In this document: piece after piece, positions 33,254 through 62,367 of the stretch
How positions within the stretch are numbered: the first letter of the stretch is position 1
Layout: each line of letters starts with the position of its first letter
Notes under the pieces: model-generated
Told to the model about the DNA's origin: nothing
Databases searched by the model: none
Seen by the model: the letters and a program-made list of their open reading frames with translations, nothing else
Translations under genes and position numbers: made by a program
NCBI GenBank assembly: GCA_036262055.1
Contig: DATAJP010000002.1
Span: 764,177 to 828,176 of the forward strand
Source: Ignavibacteria bacterium
GTDB taxonomy: Bacteria; Bacteroidota; Ignavibacteria; Tepidaquicellales; Tepidaquicellaceae
Direction of reading: 5' to 3'
DNA: 64,000 nt

Positions 33254-33285
33254 TGGAAGTCATTCCCGCGCAGGCGGGAATCCCA
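33254..33285 (+). repeat. R2 GTCATTCCCGCG palindromic repeat, copy 1
   Basis: TGGAAGTCATTCCCGCG and then a complementary CGGGAATCCCA arm form a hairpin. It is located in the gap between pntAB and pntB, inside an apparent operon. Other copies are at 44591, 54521, 58939, 62265 and 62337. Confidence 0.85.
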
Positions 33286-41157: not shown

Positions 41158-41222
41158 GGTAAGACAGACATGACCCAAAGGGTGCCCCTGTCTGTCTCGA
41201 CAGGCAAGAATGCCTGTCGTCC
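41158..41222 (+). repeat. R1 double-hairpin repeat, copy 2
   Basis: Variant whose first hairpin is enlarged (GACAGACATGACCCAAAGGG, then CCCCTGTCTGTC), followed by the standard GACAGGCAAGAATGCCTGTC hairpin. It is located in the 94-bp gap between the ECF sigma and DUF4097 genes. Confidence 0.8.
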
Positions 41223-44590: not shown

Positions 44591-44620
44591 TGGGATTCCC
44601 GCCTGCGCGGGAATGACTTC
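44591..44620 (-). repeat. R2 palindromic repeat, copy 2
   Basis: TGGGATTCCCGCC..GGCGGGAATGACTTC-type unit in the gap between the ATP-grasp and GNAT genes. It abuts the ATP-grasp stop codon: the TGA at 44621-44619 overlaps the end of the repeat by two bases. Confidence 0.85.
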
Positions 44621-48367: not shown

Positions 48368-48417
48368 GGTAGGACAGATATTTTGTCTGTCCGACAGGCA
48401 GGAATGCCTGTCGTATC
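48368..48417 (+). repeat. R1 double-hairpin repeat, copy 3
   Basis: GACAGATATTTTGTCTGTC hairpin followed by GACAGGCAGGAATGCCTGTC, ending TCGTATC. It is located in the 81-bp gap between the DUF2231-like and Rieske genes. Confidence 0.85.
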
Positions 48418-52725: not shown

Positions 52726-54510
52726 ATGAGAAAAATTACATATATAATTGCTTTATTTGTGTTAATATGCGGAACTACACAGGCGCAGACATCTTATGGC
52801 GAGATGGATATCACAACCAAACTGAAAGAAAAGTTTTATGACAAAGATGGAAATTTGTTGACAGGAAAAGGAGTGGTGGTTGCAGATATGGATTCGGGTA
52901 TTGATGTATTTCATCCTTATTTCTTTTTTGCCGATGGCGGTGAGTTCGACTGGATTGATGTTGATGGAAATAAAAAATTTACTCCGTGGGTTGATGCAGT
53001 TGATTTAAATAAAAACGGTCAGGCAGATGCAAATGAAAAGATTGGTGTTTTGTTTATTGCTGACGGAACATATGGATTGCTCGGAGCTAAGTCACCGAGC
53101 TATCAGGCAGACTGGGATTTTTTATATGTAGATGCTAACAATGATAAGAACAGAAACTATGGCTTGAAAGAGGGATTCACAGAGCAAGACCCGACTTATG
53201 GTGAGCAGCTTTTAATAACAATCGATGCAGATAAAAATAATACGTTATCCATAGGTGAAAAGATTGTAGCGCTAAAGACTTCCAAAGTTCGTTCAGTCCG
53301 TGAGAAAAACGGAACAGTGCGAAGACGCGGAGTTGATTTGATTCATACCGAACCCGATACAATTCAACACGGGACCGGAGTTATGGGATTGGTTCTCGGC
53401 GGACATTATGGTGTCCAGAGAATTCACGGGATTGCTCCCGATGCAGAACTCGTAATGGCGAACATTGATTATAAATATACACCTCCTTATGTTACGGAAT
53501 TTCCCGAGTATCTCGAGTTCATCAAAGGAGAAAATCCGAACATATTATTAATAGAAGACGGTGAGTGGCAATGGCAGTTTATGGACGGCTCAACCGAAGA
53601 AGAATTGATGATGGATGAAATGGCGCGAAACGGAATAACGGTAATCGGCGGCGGCGGAAACCTTGCAGGCGCAAAAGAACTAATGAAGGATACGCTTTCA
53701 GCAGGAGAATCAGAAACTTATGAAATTTCAGCCCCGAGAAAATCAGAAGGAAAAATTAACGACGGAATATTTACTTCATTTTTATGGACTGAACCTTCAA
53801 ATAAAATTTCTTTTGTGATTGAAACTCCGGAGAAAATGAAGACACAGGTTATCTCAGACGGTTCGGGATTTTTTACATTAGGGAAATATAATATTTTTTA
53901 TTCGAGAGATGTTTCTTCGAGAAACACGGTGATGATGCGGTTCGGTTTTTCAGAGAAAGATTCGGGAAACGTCGGCGGCGACTGGAACATAACCGCAACA
54001 TCTCAGCAAAATGTTGTGCTGTGGGGATTCACGGGCGACGTTTCACAGTCATGGTCGGGAACAACCCACTGGAAATCTCACGTCACTGATGAAGGAACGG
54101 TTACATTTCCCTGCACAGGTGACAGTGTGATTGCAGTTGCGGCATATACAGTGAACTATCCTTTTTATCCGCAGGATGTTATTGGTGACTTGTGTTATTA
54201 TGGCGGACGCGGTTATAATATAACGGGAAAGATGGGCGAAGACATAACCGCTCCGGGTCATACGACATTCTCAACTGCTCCCGATTTTGCAACGCAGATT
54301 TTCAGCGGAACGAGCTCTGCTGCTCCGCATGTTGTAGGCGCAGCTGTGCTTATGCTTCAATATGACCCTACATTGACACACTCGCAGATAAGACAGATGC
54401 TTCTTTCGTCGGCATCAAGCGATAAGTTTACGGGAACAGTTCCGAACTCAGACTGGGGCTACGGCAAGCTCAACATCGAAGCCGCAATCAGAAAAGCGAT
54501 GGGAAAATAA
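52726..54510 (+). CDS. Secreted S8 subtilisin-like serine protease
   Basis: 594 residues with a signal peptide (about 1-20, GTTQAQ). The triad is D56 in VADMDSGID, H215 in IQHGTGVMG and S530 in FSGTSSAAPH. Between D and H is an unusually long insertion of about 155 residues (about 62-208) rich in Asp/Asn (DVDGNKKFTPW, DLNKNGQADANE, YVDANNDKNRNYG), which suggests calcium-binding or EF-hand-like loops. There is no T9SS sorting domain, so the enzyme is likely periplasmic or released by another route. A strong terminator follows at 54597. Confidence 0.92.
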   Translation: MRKITYIIALFVLICGTTQAQTSYGEMDITTKLKEKFYDKDGNLLTGKGVVVADMDSGIDVFHPYFFFADGGEFDWIDVDGNKKFTPWVDAVDLNKNGQADANEKIGVLFIADGTYGLLGAKSPSYQADWDFLYVDANNDKNRNYGLKEGFTEQDPTYGEQLLITIDADKNNTLSIGEKIVALKTSKVRSVREKNGTVRRRGVDLIHTEPDTIQHGTGVMGLVLGGHYGVQRIHGIAPDAELVMANIDYKYTPPYVTEFPEYLEFIKGENPNILLIEDGEWQWQFMDGSTEEELMMDEMARNGITVIGGGGNLAGAKELMKDTLSAGESETYEISAPRKSEGKINDGIFTSFLWTEPSNKISFVIETPEKMKTQVISDGSGFFTLGKYNIFYSRDVSSRNTVMMRFGFSEKDSGNVGGDWNITATSQQNVVLWGFTGDVSQSWSGTTHWKSHVTDEGTVTFPCTGDSVIAVAAYTVNYPFYPQDVIGDLCYYGGRGYNITGKMGEDITAPGHTTFSTAPDFATQIFSGTSSAAPHVVGAAVLMLQYDPTLTHSQIRQMLLSSASSDKFTGTVPNSDWGYGKLNIEAAIRKAMGK

Positions 54511-54520
54511 ATTAGAAAAA

Positions 54521-54550
54521 GAAGTCATTCCCGCGAAGGCGGGAATCCCA
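54521..54550 (+). repeat. R2 palindromic repeat, copy 3
   Basis: GAAGTCATTCCCGCG followed by the complementary CGGGAATCCCA arm, 11 bases after the subtilase stop codon. Confidence 0.85.
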
Positions 54551-54596
54551 GTCTAAATTTTTTTCTTTCAATTCCTGTTAGAAATCAAAACTTAAT

Positions 54597-54632
54597 AAAA
54601 AAATGTCAATCAAACGATTGACATTTTTTTTT
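54597..54632 (+). terminator. Intrinsic terminator of the subtilase gene
   Basis: Perfect 15-bp arms (54597-54611, ending GTCAATC, with 54616-54630) and an AAAC loop; the right arm runs into a tract of nine T residues. Confidence 0.92.
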
Positions 54633-54717
54633 AGAATGACTATTTTTGTTAATCTTTAAACCATATACTAAATAATGTTTCAAAGTCTTAAATAACTAGA
54701 CTCGTCGTAAACAATAG

Positions 54718-54846
54718 ATGATAAAATTAAGAACACATATCGCAGCATATGATATATGCTTTATGGGACAAGCCATCGAATCTCCGGTGGTGGGAAATCC
54801 GTGGTTTAAAGAAACCTCACATTACTTCCGAATGCTAAAGACGTAA
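54718..54846 (+). CDS. Putative 42-residue leader peptide of the ABC exporter unit
   Basis: ATG at 54718 to TAA at 54844, encoding 42 residues from MIKLRTHIAAYDIC to HYFRMLKT. There is no Shine-Dalgarno sequence, which is normal here. The ORF spans the hairpins that compete with the terminator at 54875. Leader peptides control BmrC/BmrD exporters in Bacillus by ribosome stalling, and the downstream genes are of that type. The ORF could still be a chance product; its sequence matches nothing I know. Confidence 0.45.
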   Translation: MIKLRTHIAAYDICFMGQAIESPVVGNPWFKETSHYFRMLKT

Positions 54847-54911
54847 AAGCAATCAAATAAAAGAGTTTTCAAGAAACCGCGGATACCAAAAGTGTTCGCG
54901 GTTTTTTTTTG
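54744..54911 (+). promoter_or_regulatory. Candidate transcription attenuator / riboswitch-like leader
   Basis: Elements in order: hairpin AGCATAT-GAT-ATATGCT (54744-54760); stem CCATCG/CGGTGG (54773-54790); hairpin GGTTT-AAAG-AAACC (54803-54816); terminator (54875-54911). The segment 54797-54807 (ATCCGTGGTTT) can form 11 pairs with 54874-54884, the left arm of the terminator. That pairing excludes both the terminator and the 54803 hairpin. This is the antiterminator logic of attenuators and riboswitches. It ends 161 bases before the exporter ATG. Confidence 0.6.
54875..54911 (+). terminator. Terminator arm of the exporter leader
   Basis: AACCGCGGATAC (54875-54886) pairs with 54892-54903 over 12 positions, including two G-U pairs, loop CAAAA, then a T tract of ten from 54902. 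It lies before the exporter genes, not after a coding gene. Confidence 0.88.
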
Positions 54912-54948
54912 CAGTAATACGTTTTTATAATGAATAGCAATTTTGTTG

Positions 54949-55000
54949 GGTACGACAGGCATTCTTGCCTGTCGGGACAGACAGGAATGTCTGTCCTACC
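54949..55000 (-). repeat. R1 double-hairpin repeat, copy 4
   Basis: Opposite orientation to the other copies: GACAGGCATTCTTGCCTGTC and then GACAGACAGGAATGTCTGTC. It lies in the 5' untranslated region of the exporter genes. Confidence 0.88.
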
Positions 55001-55057
55001 AAATTTTTCTAATTAAATAATTTTATTCTTTGAATTTGATTGCAGCTCAATCAGTTC

Positions 55058-55062
55058 GGAGG
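55058..55062 (+). promoter_or_regulatory. Shine-Dalgarno sequence (GGAGG) of ABC exporter gene 1
   Basis: GGAGG 10 bases before the ATG at 55073. Most genes in the window lack such a site; this one fixes the start of the exporter subunit at 55073 rather than the TTG at 55040. Confidence 0.8.
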
Positions 55063-55072
55063 TTTAAATCAT

Positions 55073-56968
55073 ATGAATAATCTAAAAAAACTTTTCAGGA
55101 TTTTAGATAAGTGGAAATACTATTATGTAATAGCAGGTATTTTTCTTATCTGTGCAATGACGGTGAGAATGCTTGAGCCGAAAGTTCTGCAGATAACGGT
55201 TGATAAAATCGTTGCATATACTCAGGACACTTCGGTGAAGCAAATGGAAAACAACGATGCAATCGCTCAGGAATTTTATAGCTGGCTGCCTGAGCTGAAC
55301 AACGATAACGTCGGAACAGTTCTGATTTATCTCGGAGCAATGTTTCTTGTTATTTCACTGTTCAGAGGTTTGTTTTCGGTATCCGCAAGCTCGCTTTCGA
55401 CTTACTCGACCGAGAAGGCGATAAAGAAGCTCCGCGACAGGCTGTTCTCCCACCTGCAGGCGGTTCCGCTCGCGTACCACTCGAAGACACCGACGGGCGA
55501 GCTGATTCAGCGATGCACGGGAGACGTTGAGACGATTAGAAAATTTTCGACTCATCAGGTGATTGAAACTTTGAGGATGACTGCAATTTTCTTCGGAGCG
55601 TTTACGATGATGTTGACGATTGATGTTACTTATGCGTTCATAACAATCTCTCTTGTTCCGGTAATTTTAATCGGATGTATTTTCTTTTATAAGAAAGAAA
55701 GTGAGATATGGACAAAGCATGAAGCTGAACAGGATAAGCTTTCGATTATGGTTCAGGAAAATTTGTCGGGCATCAGAGTTGTAAAAGCATTTGCGAAGGA
55801 AGATTACGAGATAAAAAAGTTCACGGCGCAAAATGAAGTTAAACGCGCATGGGGATTGAAGCTGTTGAAGCTTCATGCTTATTTCTGGCCGTTCTCTGAT
55901 TTCATTGTTTATACTCAGATGGCAATTGCATTGCTTGCAGGCGGATATTTTGTATTGAACAACCAGATAACAGTCGGAGAATATGTTGCATTTTATTCTT
56001 ATGCGACTTTCGTTATCTGGCCTTTGAGAAGAATTGGACAAATCGTGAGTGAGATGGGTATGACAACGGTTGCGATCAACAGAATTTTTTCGATACTCGA
56101 TACTGAGACCGAGGATTACTCAGGTTCAGAGCATGAAAAAACAAAGCTTGAAGGAGAGATTGAATTTAAAAACGTTACGTTCAAGTATGATGATGAGCAT
56201 GACCAGCATATTTTAAATGATGTCAGCTTTAAGATTAAGCCGGGCGAAAAAATTGCTCTGCTTGGTCCGACAGGAGCAGGAAAATCGACAATCATTTCTT
56301 TGCTGATGAGATTTTTTGAACCGCAAAAAGGTGAAATCCTCCTTGACGGCAAGAAACTGAACTCGTTCTCAAAAGAATTTTTGAGAAGTCATATCGGTGT
56401 AGTTCTGCAAAAATCTTTTTTGTTTTCAACAACTATAAAAGATAATATTGCTTACGGAAATCAGAACTCTCACATAGATGAGGTTATTGATGCGGCAAAA
56501 GCGGCGCAGATACACGATATAATCACTGAGGTGTTTCCGCATTCTTATGAAACGATTGTCGGTGAGAAAGGTGTGACACTTTCGGGCGGACAAAAGCAAA
56601 GGGTTTCCATTGCAAGAACGTTGTTGATGAATCCCGATATTCTTGTTCTCGATGACTCGACTTCTGCGGTTGATACAGAAACTGAATTTGAGATTCAGAA
56701 AGCATTGAGAACTCTTGCAAAAGGAAAAACAACTTTTGTAATTGCTCACAGAATTGCTTCGGTTCAGGATTGCGACAGAATTATAGTTCTTGATAAGGGA
56801 AAAATTGTTGAGTCAGGAACTCACAATGATTTGATTAAGAACGAAGGATTTTATAAAAAGATTTATGACATACAGGTATCGATTGAAGAAGAAATTGAAA
56901 AAGAAACACAGGAACTTGAACCGAATAAAGATGAAAAAGATAAATCATTAACTTCTTTATTAAACTAA
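55073..56968 (+). CDS. ABC exporter half-transporter 1 (BmrC/YheI-like, degenerate Walker B)
   Basis: 631 residues from the ATG at 55073, chosen over the TTG at 55040 because a GGAGG precedes it and the protein then starts MNNLKKLFRILDKWKYYYV. Six membrane helices precede a nucleotide-binding domain with Walker A GPTGAGKST, signature LSGGQKQR and Walker B ILVLDDSTSAVD, where the catalytic Glu is Asp. With its partner this makes a heterodimeric exporter with one degenerate ATP site, like BmrC/BmrD or TM287/288. The substrate could be a drug or lipid. The downstream partner starts 30 bases later. Confidence 0.92.
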   Translation: MNNLKKLFRILDKWKYYYVIAGIFLICAMTVRMLEPKVLQITVDKIVAYTQDTSVKQMENNDAIAQEFYSWLPELNNDNVGTVLIYLGAMFLVISLFRGLFSVSASSLSTYSTEKAIKKLRDRLFSHLQAVPLAYHSKTPTGELIQRCTGDVETIRKFSTHQVIETLRMTAIFFGAFTMMLTIDVTYAFITISLVPVILIGCIFFYKKESEIWTKHEAEQDKLSIMVQENLSGIRVVKAFAKEDYEIKKFTAQNEVKRAWGLKLLKLHAYFWPFSDFIVYTQMAIALLAGGYFVLNNQITVGEYVAFYSYATFVIWPLRRIGQIVSEMGMTTVAINRIFSILDTETEDYSGSEHEKTKLEGEIEFKNVTFKYDDEHDQHILNDVSFKIKPGEKIALLGPTGAGKSTIISLLMRFFEPQKGEILLDGKKLNSFSKEFLRSHIGVVLQKSFLFSTTIKDNIAYGNQNSHIDEVIDAAKAAQIHDIITEVFPHSYETIVGEKGVTLSGGQKQRVSIARTLLMNPDILVLDDSTSAVDTETEFEIQKALRTLAKGKTTFVIAHRIASVQDCDRIIVLDKGKIVESGTHNDLIKNEGFYKKIYDIQVSIEEEIEKETQELEPNKDEKDKSLTSLLN

Positions 56969-56998: not shown

Positions 56999-58825
56999 AT
57001 GACAAACTTAAGAGAAGAACATTTTCAGGCGAAAGGGTCAATCTTTCCTTTCTTAAAAAGATTGTTCTCTTACACCAGAAAATATAAAAAATTTCTGACG
57101 TTGTTTATAGTTTTTGTTCTCACGACCGCGGCAGCCGAAGCGCTGCTGCCGGTTGTCTGGATGAATCTGATAGATAATGCGATAGTTCCGCTTGTAACAC
57201 AGCAGACAAACGATTATTCTCCTTTATGGAAATACGTATGGATTTATTTCGCACTCGGATGTTTTGTTGCATGCAGTGTTTATGTTTTTATTTTTTGCGC
57301 AGGAAGAATACAGGAGTTTGTTATGTTCGACATTCGGCAGGATTTGTTTAAAAAACTTCAGCAGCTATCGTTTTCCTTTTATGATACTTCTGCTGTCGGC
57401 TGGCTGATGTCACGAATTACTTCGGACTCGCATAAAGTAACGGAGCTTATTTCATGGAACTTCATTGAAGCAGTTTGGGGATTCGGCATGATTGTATTCT
57501 GTTCGATTGTGATGTTCATTTACAACTGGAAGCTTGCGTTGATTGTAATTGCAGTTATTCCTGTTTTGTTCTTGCTTTCGGGAAGAATAAGAAAATTAAT
57601 TCTGAAATATTCCCGTGAGTCAAGAAAGTATAATTCGGAAATTACTGCAAGCTTTAACGAAAACATTAACGGGATAGAAGTCAATAAATCGATGGTTCAG
57701 GAAGACCGCGCGAGCGGAAAATTTGAAACACTGAGCGAAAAAATGCGTTTATCTTCATTTAGGTCCGAGTATTACACGGCGCTTTATACTCCGCTCATCA
57801 TTTTCGGCGGTTCTATAGGTGCAGCAATTGTGATTTATGTTGGCGGTCAGATGACTATTGGTCTGCCTCCTGAAATCACGCTTGGAACACTTGCAGCATT
57901 TTTCGGATATGCGACTTTGATTTTCGAGCCGGTACTTGACATATCGAGATTCTATGCACATGCGCAGGGATGTATGTCAGCAGGTGAAAGAATTTTTTCA
58001 CTTGTTGATATGGACGTGAAAGTAAAAGACCTTGATAAATCTGACAGCTTTGAAAGAATCAGGGGTGAAATCGAATTTGAAAACGTTTCGTTCAGCTATG
58101 AAGAAGACAAGCCGGTTATTGCTGATATGAATTTAAAAATCAAAGCGGGACAATCGATTGCACTTGTTGGTGAAACGGGTGGCGGTAAATCGACAATCAT
58201 AAATCTTATCTCGAGATTTTATGAACCTGTCGGCGGGAAAGTAAAAATTGATGGTCAGGATTATATGAATAAGACGATTCAGTCTCTCAGAAGCCAGCTT
58301 GGTATTGTTTTGCAAACTCCGCATTTGTTTTCGGGGACAATCCGTGAGAATATACGCTATGGCAATGAAAATGCGACTGACCAGGATATAATAGATGCAC
58401 TTAAATTTATCGGAATAGATGAATATATTGAGAGACTTGACGAAGAGGTCGGCGAAGGCGGCGAAAAGCTTTCAATGGGGGAAAAGCAATTAATATCTTT
58501 CGCAAGAGCGGTACTTGCTAACCCTGCAATTTTCATTATGGATGAAGCAACTTCTTCGATTGATACACTGACCGAAGCCAAAATCCAGCAGGGAATTAAC
58601 GAGATAATTCGCGGAAGAACTTCCGTTATAATTGCACACCGTCTTTCTACCATTAAGAATTGTGACAGAATTATGGTTGTCCGCAAAGGAAAAATTATCG
58701 AAGACGGAAGCCACCGTGAGCTTATGATTAAGAAAGGACAGTATTACTCGCTTTACACAAGACAGCTTCGCGAGCAAAGAGAAAAAGAAATGCTCGACAA
58801 TGAGCAGTTAGTGATGAGTAATTAA
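56999..58825 (+). CDS. ABC exporter half-transporter 2 (BmrD/YheH-like, catalytic Walker B)
   Basis: 608 residues: six membrane helices, then an ATP-binding domain with Walker A GETGGGKST, a divergent signature LSMGEKQL and a normal Walker B IFIMDEATSSID with catalytic Glu. Its Walker sites pair with the LSGGQ signature of subunit 1 to form the active ATP site; the other site is degenerate. The pattern is the reciprocal of subunit 1. The start MTNLREEHFQAKGSIFPFLKRLFSYTRKYKK is usual for this family. Confidence 0.92.
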   Translation: MTNLREEHFQAKGSIFPFLKRLFSYTRKYKKFLTLFIVFVLTTAAAEALLPVVWMNLIDNAIVPLVTQQTNDYSPLWKYVWIYFALGCFVACSVYVFIFCAGRIQEFVMFDIRQDLFKKLQQLSFSFYDTSAVGWLMSRITSDSHKVTELISWNFIEAVWGFGMIVFCSIVMFIYNWKLALIVIAVIPVLFLLSGRIRKLILKYSRESRKYNSEITASFNENINGIEVNKSMVQEDRASGKFETLSEKMRLSSFRSEYYTALYTPLIIFGGSIGAAIVIYVGGQMTIGLPPEITLGTLAAFFGYATLIFEPVLDISRFYAHAQGCMSAGERIFSLVDMDVKVKDLDKSDSFERIRGEIEFENVSFSYEEDKPVIADMNLKIKAGQSIALVGETGGGKSTIINLISRFYEPVGGKVKIDGQDYMNKTIQSLRSQLGIVLQTPHLFSGTIRENIRYGNENATDQDIIDALKFIGIDEYIERLDEEVGEGGEKLSMGEKQLISFARAVLANPAIFIMDEATSSIDTLTEAKIQQGINEIIRGRTSVIIAHRLSTIKNCDRIMVVRKGKIIEDGSHRELMIKKGQYYSLYTRQLREQREKEMLDNEQLVMSN

Positions 58826-58875: not shown

Positions 58876-58969
58876 ATAAAATCCCCTCTTGAGAGGGGTG
58901 GCTCCAACGAAGTTGGAGACGGGGTGTGTTCTCGGAAGGGGATTCCCGCTTTCGCGGGAATGACTTCCA
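58876..58969. repeat. Composite repeat: CCCCTCTTGAGAGGGG hairpin plus R2 copy 4
   Basis: CCCCTCTTGAGAGGGG is a palindrome, followed by CTCCAACGAAGTTGGAG (a second palindrome), the ACGGGGTGTGTT linker and then an R2 unit (58939-58969, GGGATTCCCGC..GCGGGAATGACTTCCA). This block fills most of the 198-bp gap before the tricorn gene. Confidence 0.8.
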
Positions 58970-62336: not shown

Positions 62337-62367
62337 TGGGATTCCCGCCTGCGCGGGAATGACTTCA
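62337..62367 (-). repeat. R2 palindromic repeat, copy 6, containing the rsgA ATG
   Basis: TGGGATTCCCGCCTGCGCG GGAATGACTTCA in reverse orientation to copy 5, 40 bases away, so copies 5 and 6 make a long imperfect palindrome. The GGAATGACTTC part includes the ATG at 62359 that opens the rsgA reading frame. Confidence 0.85.

Follow-up and report, generated by a model that had tools for sequence, protein, structure and literature searches.

Our analysis indicates that the 64,000-nucleotide stretch of Ignavibacteria DNA examined here (the window) probably contains a transcription attenuator of the ribosome-mediated kind, which governs a heterodimeric multidrug-type ABC exporter. The parts of this leader (Table 1), their conservation, the co-evolution of its three alternative pairings (1:2, 2:3 and 3:4, named after the segments involved) and the amino-acid selection on its ORF were shown by computation. 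An earlier note on the same DNA had proposed a 42-codon ORF, an intrinsic terminator and an 11-bp antiterminator pairing upstream of the exporter genes, together with a small hairpin, GGTTT-AAAG-AAACC. On direct reading of the sequence each of these was found where the note had placed it.

Table 1. Features of the leader and of the exporter genes in the window
Feature	Coordinates	Strand	Sequence, features or basis
Bacteroidota-type promoter	54618..54648	+	TTG at 54618-54620, 20 nt, TATTTTTG at 54641-54648
Segment 1 (putative anti-antiterminator strand)	54654..54663	+	CTTTAAACCA, at the predicted transcript start
Leader-peptide ORF	54718..54846	+	42 codons, MIKLRTHIAAYDICFMGQAIESPVVGNPWFKETSHYFRMLKT and stop; conservation and selection
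Segment 2 (antiterminator arm)	54797..54811	+	ATCCGTGGTTTAAAG, within the leader ORF; pairs with 54874-54884
Hairpin GGTTT-AAAG-AAACC	54803..54816	+	Exists in the window; conservation absent
Segment 3 (terminator left arm)	54874..54886	+	AAACCGCGGATAC; arm covariation
Segment 4 (terminator right arm and U run)	54892..54910	+	Sequence and folding
ABC exporter subunit 1	55073..56968	+	Degenerate Walker B LDDST, intact signature LSGGQ; ATG at 55073
ABC exporter subunit 2	56999..58825	+	Intact Walker B MDEAT, degenerate signature LSMGE

In the window, ATCCGTGGTTT (54797-54807) can pair with AAACCGCGGAT (54874-54884) along 11 positions, one of them a G-U pair. The terminator extends from about 54872 to 54910, with a hairpin of about -21 kcal/mol and nine T. 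The fold of the whole leader is better than 200 of 200 dinucleotide shuffles (z -3.2), and so is the duplex between the 3' part of the ORF and the left arm of the terminator (200 of 200, z -4.5). It was found that the promoter pattern TTG-N20-TAnnTTTG keeps an identical 20-nt spacing in the leaders of nearly all relatives. The TTGACA of this promoter is overlapped by a strong palindrome (54597-54630) that has a T run on both strands and probably terminates the gene upstream. The leader matches no Rfam family: a search of the whole window gave a tRNA as its single match above cut-off, and 54500-55100 gave sub-threshold matches only.

The leader is widely conserved along with the exporter. A DNA search of 59 relatives recovered its 3' part in about 20 genomes, each time directly 5' of an ortholog of the gene that starts at 55073. 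A covariance model based on 22 leaders, in which the terminator was the sole structure, was then scanned over 391 genomes of the class; every strong match lay upstream of an exporter ortholog, and genomes of the same family that lack the exporter gave no strong match. Seventeen weaker matches in non-exporter contexts (L061-L077) were judged on inspection to be chance terminators. By protein search (E <1e-150) the exporter is present in 31 of the 391 genomes in 34 copies, and all 34 are preceded by a leader, in which an ORF is followed by a terminator with a U run; from there it is 13-238 nt to the gene. Thus an intrinsic terminator stands between leader and regulated gene in every case. In G042, a genome with 6% contamination, there are four exporter copies (L036, L078, L079, L080), each with a leader of its own. 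In many relatives the exporter starts only 13-40 nt behind the terminator, which leaves no space for a second promoter, so that the gene can be expressed only by read-through.

The two proteins encoded downstream appear from their sequences to be a heterodimeric multidrug-type ABC exporter. The reciprocal pattern of degenerate sites that had been claimed for them is present (Table 1): of the two sites one is degenerate and the other intact, as is the case in BmrCD and TM287/288. Sequence comparison brought up solved chains of TM287/288 and BmrCD for both subunits; within the solved-structure set the closest kin were not BmrC (YheI) and BmrD (YheH), as TM_0288 matches both subunits better. In each of the eight class genomes that were checked, subunit 2 comes after subunit 1.

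The distance between terminator and exporter varies, and it may be explained by palindromes in the gap. In the window a pair of copies of the palindrome GACAGGCATTCTTGCCTGTC lies there, and other palindromic sequence fills the gap of relatives. This palindrome occurs four times in the window (41199-41218, 48393-48412, 54954-54973 and 54976-54995) with zero copies expected by chance. Another one, ATTCCCGCGNAGGCGGGAAT, occurs five times (33262-33281, 44595-44614, 54527-54546, 58942-58961 and 62341-62360), again with zero expected, and represents a dispersed repeat family.

More distant relatives have the same architecture in a less regular form, upstream of orthologs in a separate genome set that includes a Bacteroidia MAG. 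A scan of genome contigs returned mostly unrelated ABC proteins besides the ortholog of this MAG (L093, genome G688), which shows 54% identity and whose leader is the top covariance-model match in its 7.6-Mb genome. G688 and its relatives have 16 orthologs, ten of which stand behind an ORF and a terminator. In about eight of the ten the antiterminator arm matches, sometimes weakly, and in two the antiterminator is unconvincing. No leader was detectable at the other six. A sample of the phylum, searched at E 1e-150, added no ortholog from outside the order.

The pairing arms change together. In the alignment, 98.5% of the terminator-arm cells are paired with 12 compensatory cells (0 of 500 shuffles), as against 31-55% paired in slid controls. 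For the antiterminator, counted on an alignment that had not been fitted to it, 97.3% of the cells are paired with nine compensatory ones, and slid controls remain at or below 60%. In a swap test, run on all 44 leaders and on 28 representatives with permutations that keep relatedness in, a leader's own antiterminator and terminator arms pair about 3.2 kcal/mol better than the row and column expectation (0 of 20,000 permutations). Individual leaders illustrate this. In L093 the terminator is CCGCAAGCAT/ATGCTTGCGG and the antiterminator arm ATGCTTGTGG, all three altered together; in genome G040 a triple change has given the terminator CCGCAGAC/GTCTGCGG and the arm GTCTGtCGGC. The antiterminator and the terminator are thus mutually exclusive, as they are in ribosome-mediated transcription attenuators, and the compensatory changes would be enough to define a new RNA family. 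The check among relatives that the earlier note had suggested, whether the short ORF is kept and whether the arms covary, gave a positive answer to both questions class-wide in 31 genomes.

The earlier note had also described the antiterminator pairing as excluding the two other hairpins, one of them at 54803-54816. The switch between antiterminator and terminator holds, with arms that co-evolve, but a role of the hairpin at 54803-54816 as anti-antiterminator is not supported. This hairpin is not kept even in the nearest relatives, and its local fold in the window has a z of +0.3. In many relatives it is replaced by a different hairpin that spans the stop of the leader ORF. This one was considered as a conserved pause hairpin and was rejected, being absent from the window's branch and having a median z of just -0.9.

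Instead, the conserved anti-antiterminator appears to be a long-range helix between segment 1, an element absent from the earlier note, and the antiterminator arm. In the window CTTTAAACCA pairs at 10 of 10 positions with TGGTTTAAAG (54802-54811); other branches pair TCACGGA with TCCGTGG, or CTAACCAG with CTGGTTAG. When the 5'UTR was swapped against the antiterminator arm, 0 of 20,000 permutations matched the observed pairing (z -5.3 for the class, z -6.3 for all leaders). The N-terminal part of the ORF against the antiterminator arm (z +1.2) and the 5'UTR against the terminator arm (z -1.0) served as negative controls, both of which carry the same relatedness as the 1:2 test. Since the 1:2 test is positive and the controls are negative, the leader has the full set of 1:2, 2:3 and 3:4 pairings. 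In the G040 leader (L081), the 5'UTR of which is only about 23 nt long, neither segment 1 nor the 1:2 pairing was detectable.

The ORF itself is also conserved. It stands at the same place with 33-48 codons in all 34 class leaders, and an ORF of at least 26 codons that reaches the antiterminator arm is present in 28 of 29 representatives, compared with 4.0 expected from shuffles. In one family a 36-codon ORF is kept in 15 leaders with zero indels. Among related leaders dN/dS is about 0.45 for codons 2-22, which lie mostly outside the RNA stems, while the other two frames have pN/pS >1. This pattern argues for purifying selection on the amino acids in the relatives. As in ribosome-mediated attenuators, the predicted ORF overlaps the antiterminator arm and its peptide appears to be under selection.

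Early in the peptide, T-Y/H-I/M/L is often seen at positions 6-10, with A/S-P a few residues further. A block search of the leader peptides found the early residues to be non-random (179.9 against a shuffle maximum of 163.3), with a mixed block and relatedness still in the statistic, and MAFFT alignment of the peptides between groups was poor; the pattern of early residues is suggestive only. It could be possible, and we put it forward tentatively as the less probable case, that the peptide is a lineage-native arrest peptide whose early residues halt the ribosome only when a particular antibiotic is bound. The exporter would then respond to a specific drug, and the ribosomes concerned may belong to a group that largely ignores Shine-Dalgarno sequences. 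About three quarters of the class leaders contain GGAGG near the ORF stop, usually as CGGAGG in Arg-Arg codons. It lies just 5' of the stop in L011, L014, L007, L016 and others, is present despite differing local hairpins, and is missing near the stop in the window's branch. GGAGG resembles a Shine-Dalgarno sequence, and the host group is said to ignore these.

The pairings 1:2, 2:3 and 3:4 form a complete switch even in a ribosome-free state, and a small molecule or a protein acting on the 5' part of the leader could select between 1:2 and 2:3, the ORF being incidental. We consider such a ligand-sensing attenuator unlikely, as the ORF is retained in 34 of 34 leaders and constrained outside the stems (dN/dS about 0.45), a match to an Rfam riboswitch is absent, and besides the pairing arms there is no highly conserved aptamer-like core. 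Most first-family leaders have a Trp codon inside the antiterminator arm, which recalls a trp-type attenuator that senses amino-acid starvation through an uncharged tRNA, for example tRNA-Trp via the conserved TGG. This is very improbable: the TGG is accounted for by its pairing with the terminator arm and is missing from the second-family leaders and from several of the G688 set, there is no codon run of any kind, and the regulated genes encode an exporter and not biosynthesis. Least credible of all is that a small RNA or the gene of a small protein, equipped with a terminator of its own, lies upstream of the exporter by chance. This would suit the strong terminator and a 3' end that is the best-conserved part of the leader, but the neighbour is always the same exporter, an antiterminator co-evolving with the terminator would be purposeless, and an exporter that often begins 13-40 nt past the terminator has no room for a promoter of its own.

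For the ribosome-mediated attenuator we propose the following course of events. RNA polymerase would start at about 54654 and make segment 1, the leader ORF containing segment 2, and then segments 3 and 4. When the ORF is translated freely or is untranslated, segment 2 would be masked by ribosomes or taken by segment 1; with segment 2 unavailable, the 3:4 terminator would form and transcription would end near 54910. A ribosome that slows down or halts within the first two thirds of the ORF would leave segment 2 free as segments 3 and 4 emerge, so that 2:3 could form before segment 4 exists and the exporter genes would be read. The likeliest signal would be a ribosome-targeting antibiotic that the exporter removes. 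We infer from the computed parts the stalled ribosome as the switch, the manner in which 1:2 gets blocked and the inducing drug. Segment 1 lies about 50 nt upstream of the start codon, and because of this distance a ribosome stalled at codon 9 leaves it uncovered; steric cover does not account for the block of 1:2 by a stalled ribosome.

Folding is in line with such a sequence of events. Most leaders form 1:2 as long as segment 3 has yet to be transcribed. Once segment 3 is out but segment 4 is not, 2:3 is favoured, with a mean of 0.67 in the free leader; a ribosome placed at codon 9 or 15 raises the mean to 0.79, and one that sits on segment 2 brings it down to 0. When the terminator is complete, it prevails at equilibrium for almost any ribosome position, and the states were separated by the staged fold but not by the equilibrium fold. 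As the terminator is nearly always the most stable structure at equilibrium, the switch must be kinetic and set by the location of the ribosome.

The leader is conserved across genera, compensatory changes are ample and the peptide appears to be under selection. Together these make it possible to ask directly, with a reporter, whether drug export is under the control of stalled ribosomes. Such a test, in mostly uncultivated Bacteroidota-type bacteria, would also bear on the substrate of the exporter.

Antibiotic-responsive attenuators are known chiefly from the Bacillota and a few other groups, and tetQ in Bacteroides is controlled by a translational leader, which is another mechanism. The E. 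coli trp attenuator has four segments with 1:2, 2:3 and 3:4 alternatives like the leader described here; in the latter, however, segment 1 lies upstream of the ORF and not inside it, and a regulatory codon run is absent. Our literature search did not find an antibiotic attenuator described in this lineage. For Bacteroides, one paper points out, without test, short ORFs in long 5'UTRs that are 'reminiscent of leader peptides' (PMC7366714). In MsrDL, an intrinsic terminator is controlled by a leader peptide on which ribosomes stall when a drug is present, as is proposed here, but that peptide has six residues and the stall occurs at its stop codon (PMC10314930). In the present leader the ORF is long, and its conserved residues lie near the beginning. 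Attenuation of bmrBCD in B. subtilis has been proposed with reporter evidence, lincomycin and other ribosome drugs being the inducers (PMC4191407). It shares with the present leader an ORF of tens of codons, a terminator and antiterminator, and a heterodimeric ABC exporter downstream. The bmrB terminator is inside the ORF and its anti-antiterminator has no known role (PMC4191407); here the terminator begins 27 nt past the stop, which separates the leader from the bmrB type, and the anti-antiterminator co-evolves with the antiterminator. For vmlR of Bacillus subtilis it has been shown experimentally that a ribosome stalled on the uORF prevents the anti-antiterminator, and the antiterminator then replaces the intrinsic terminator (PMC9226507). 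Both leaders have a uORF, an exchange of antiterminator and terminator and a resistance gene downstream. In vmlR a tripeptide uORF with a Shine-Dalgarno site lies inside the anti-antiterminator hairpin, and the regulated gene codes for an ABC-F factor (PMC9226507). The ORF here is 33-48 codons long, most of it is enclosed by the two strands of the anti-antiterminator, and the regulated gene would be that of a membrane exporter. By analogy, the leader may work like vmlR and bmrBCD, the likeness being one of logic.
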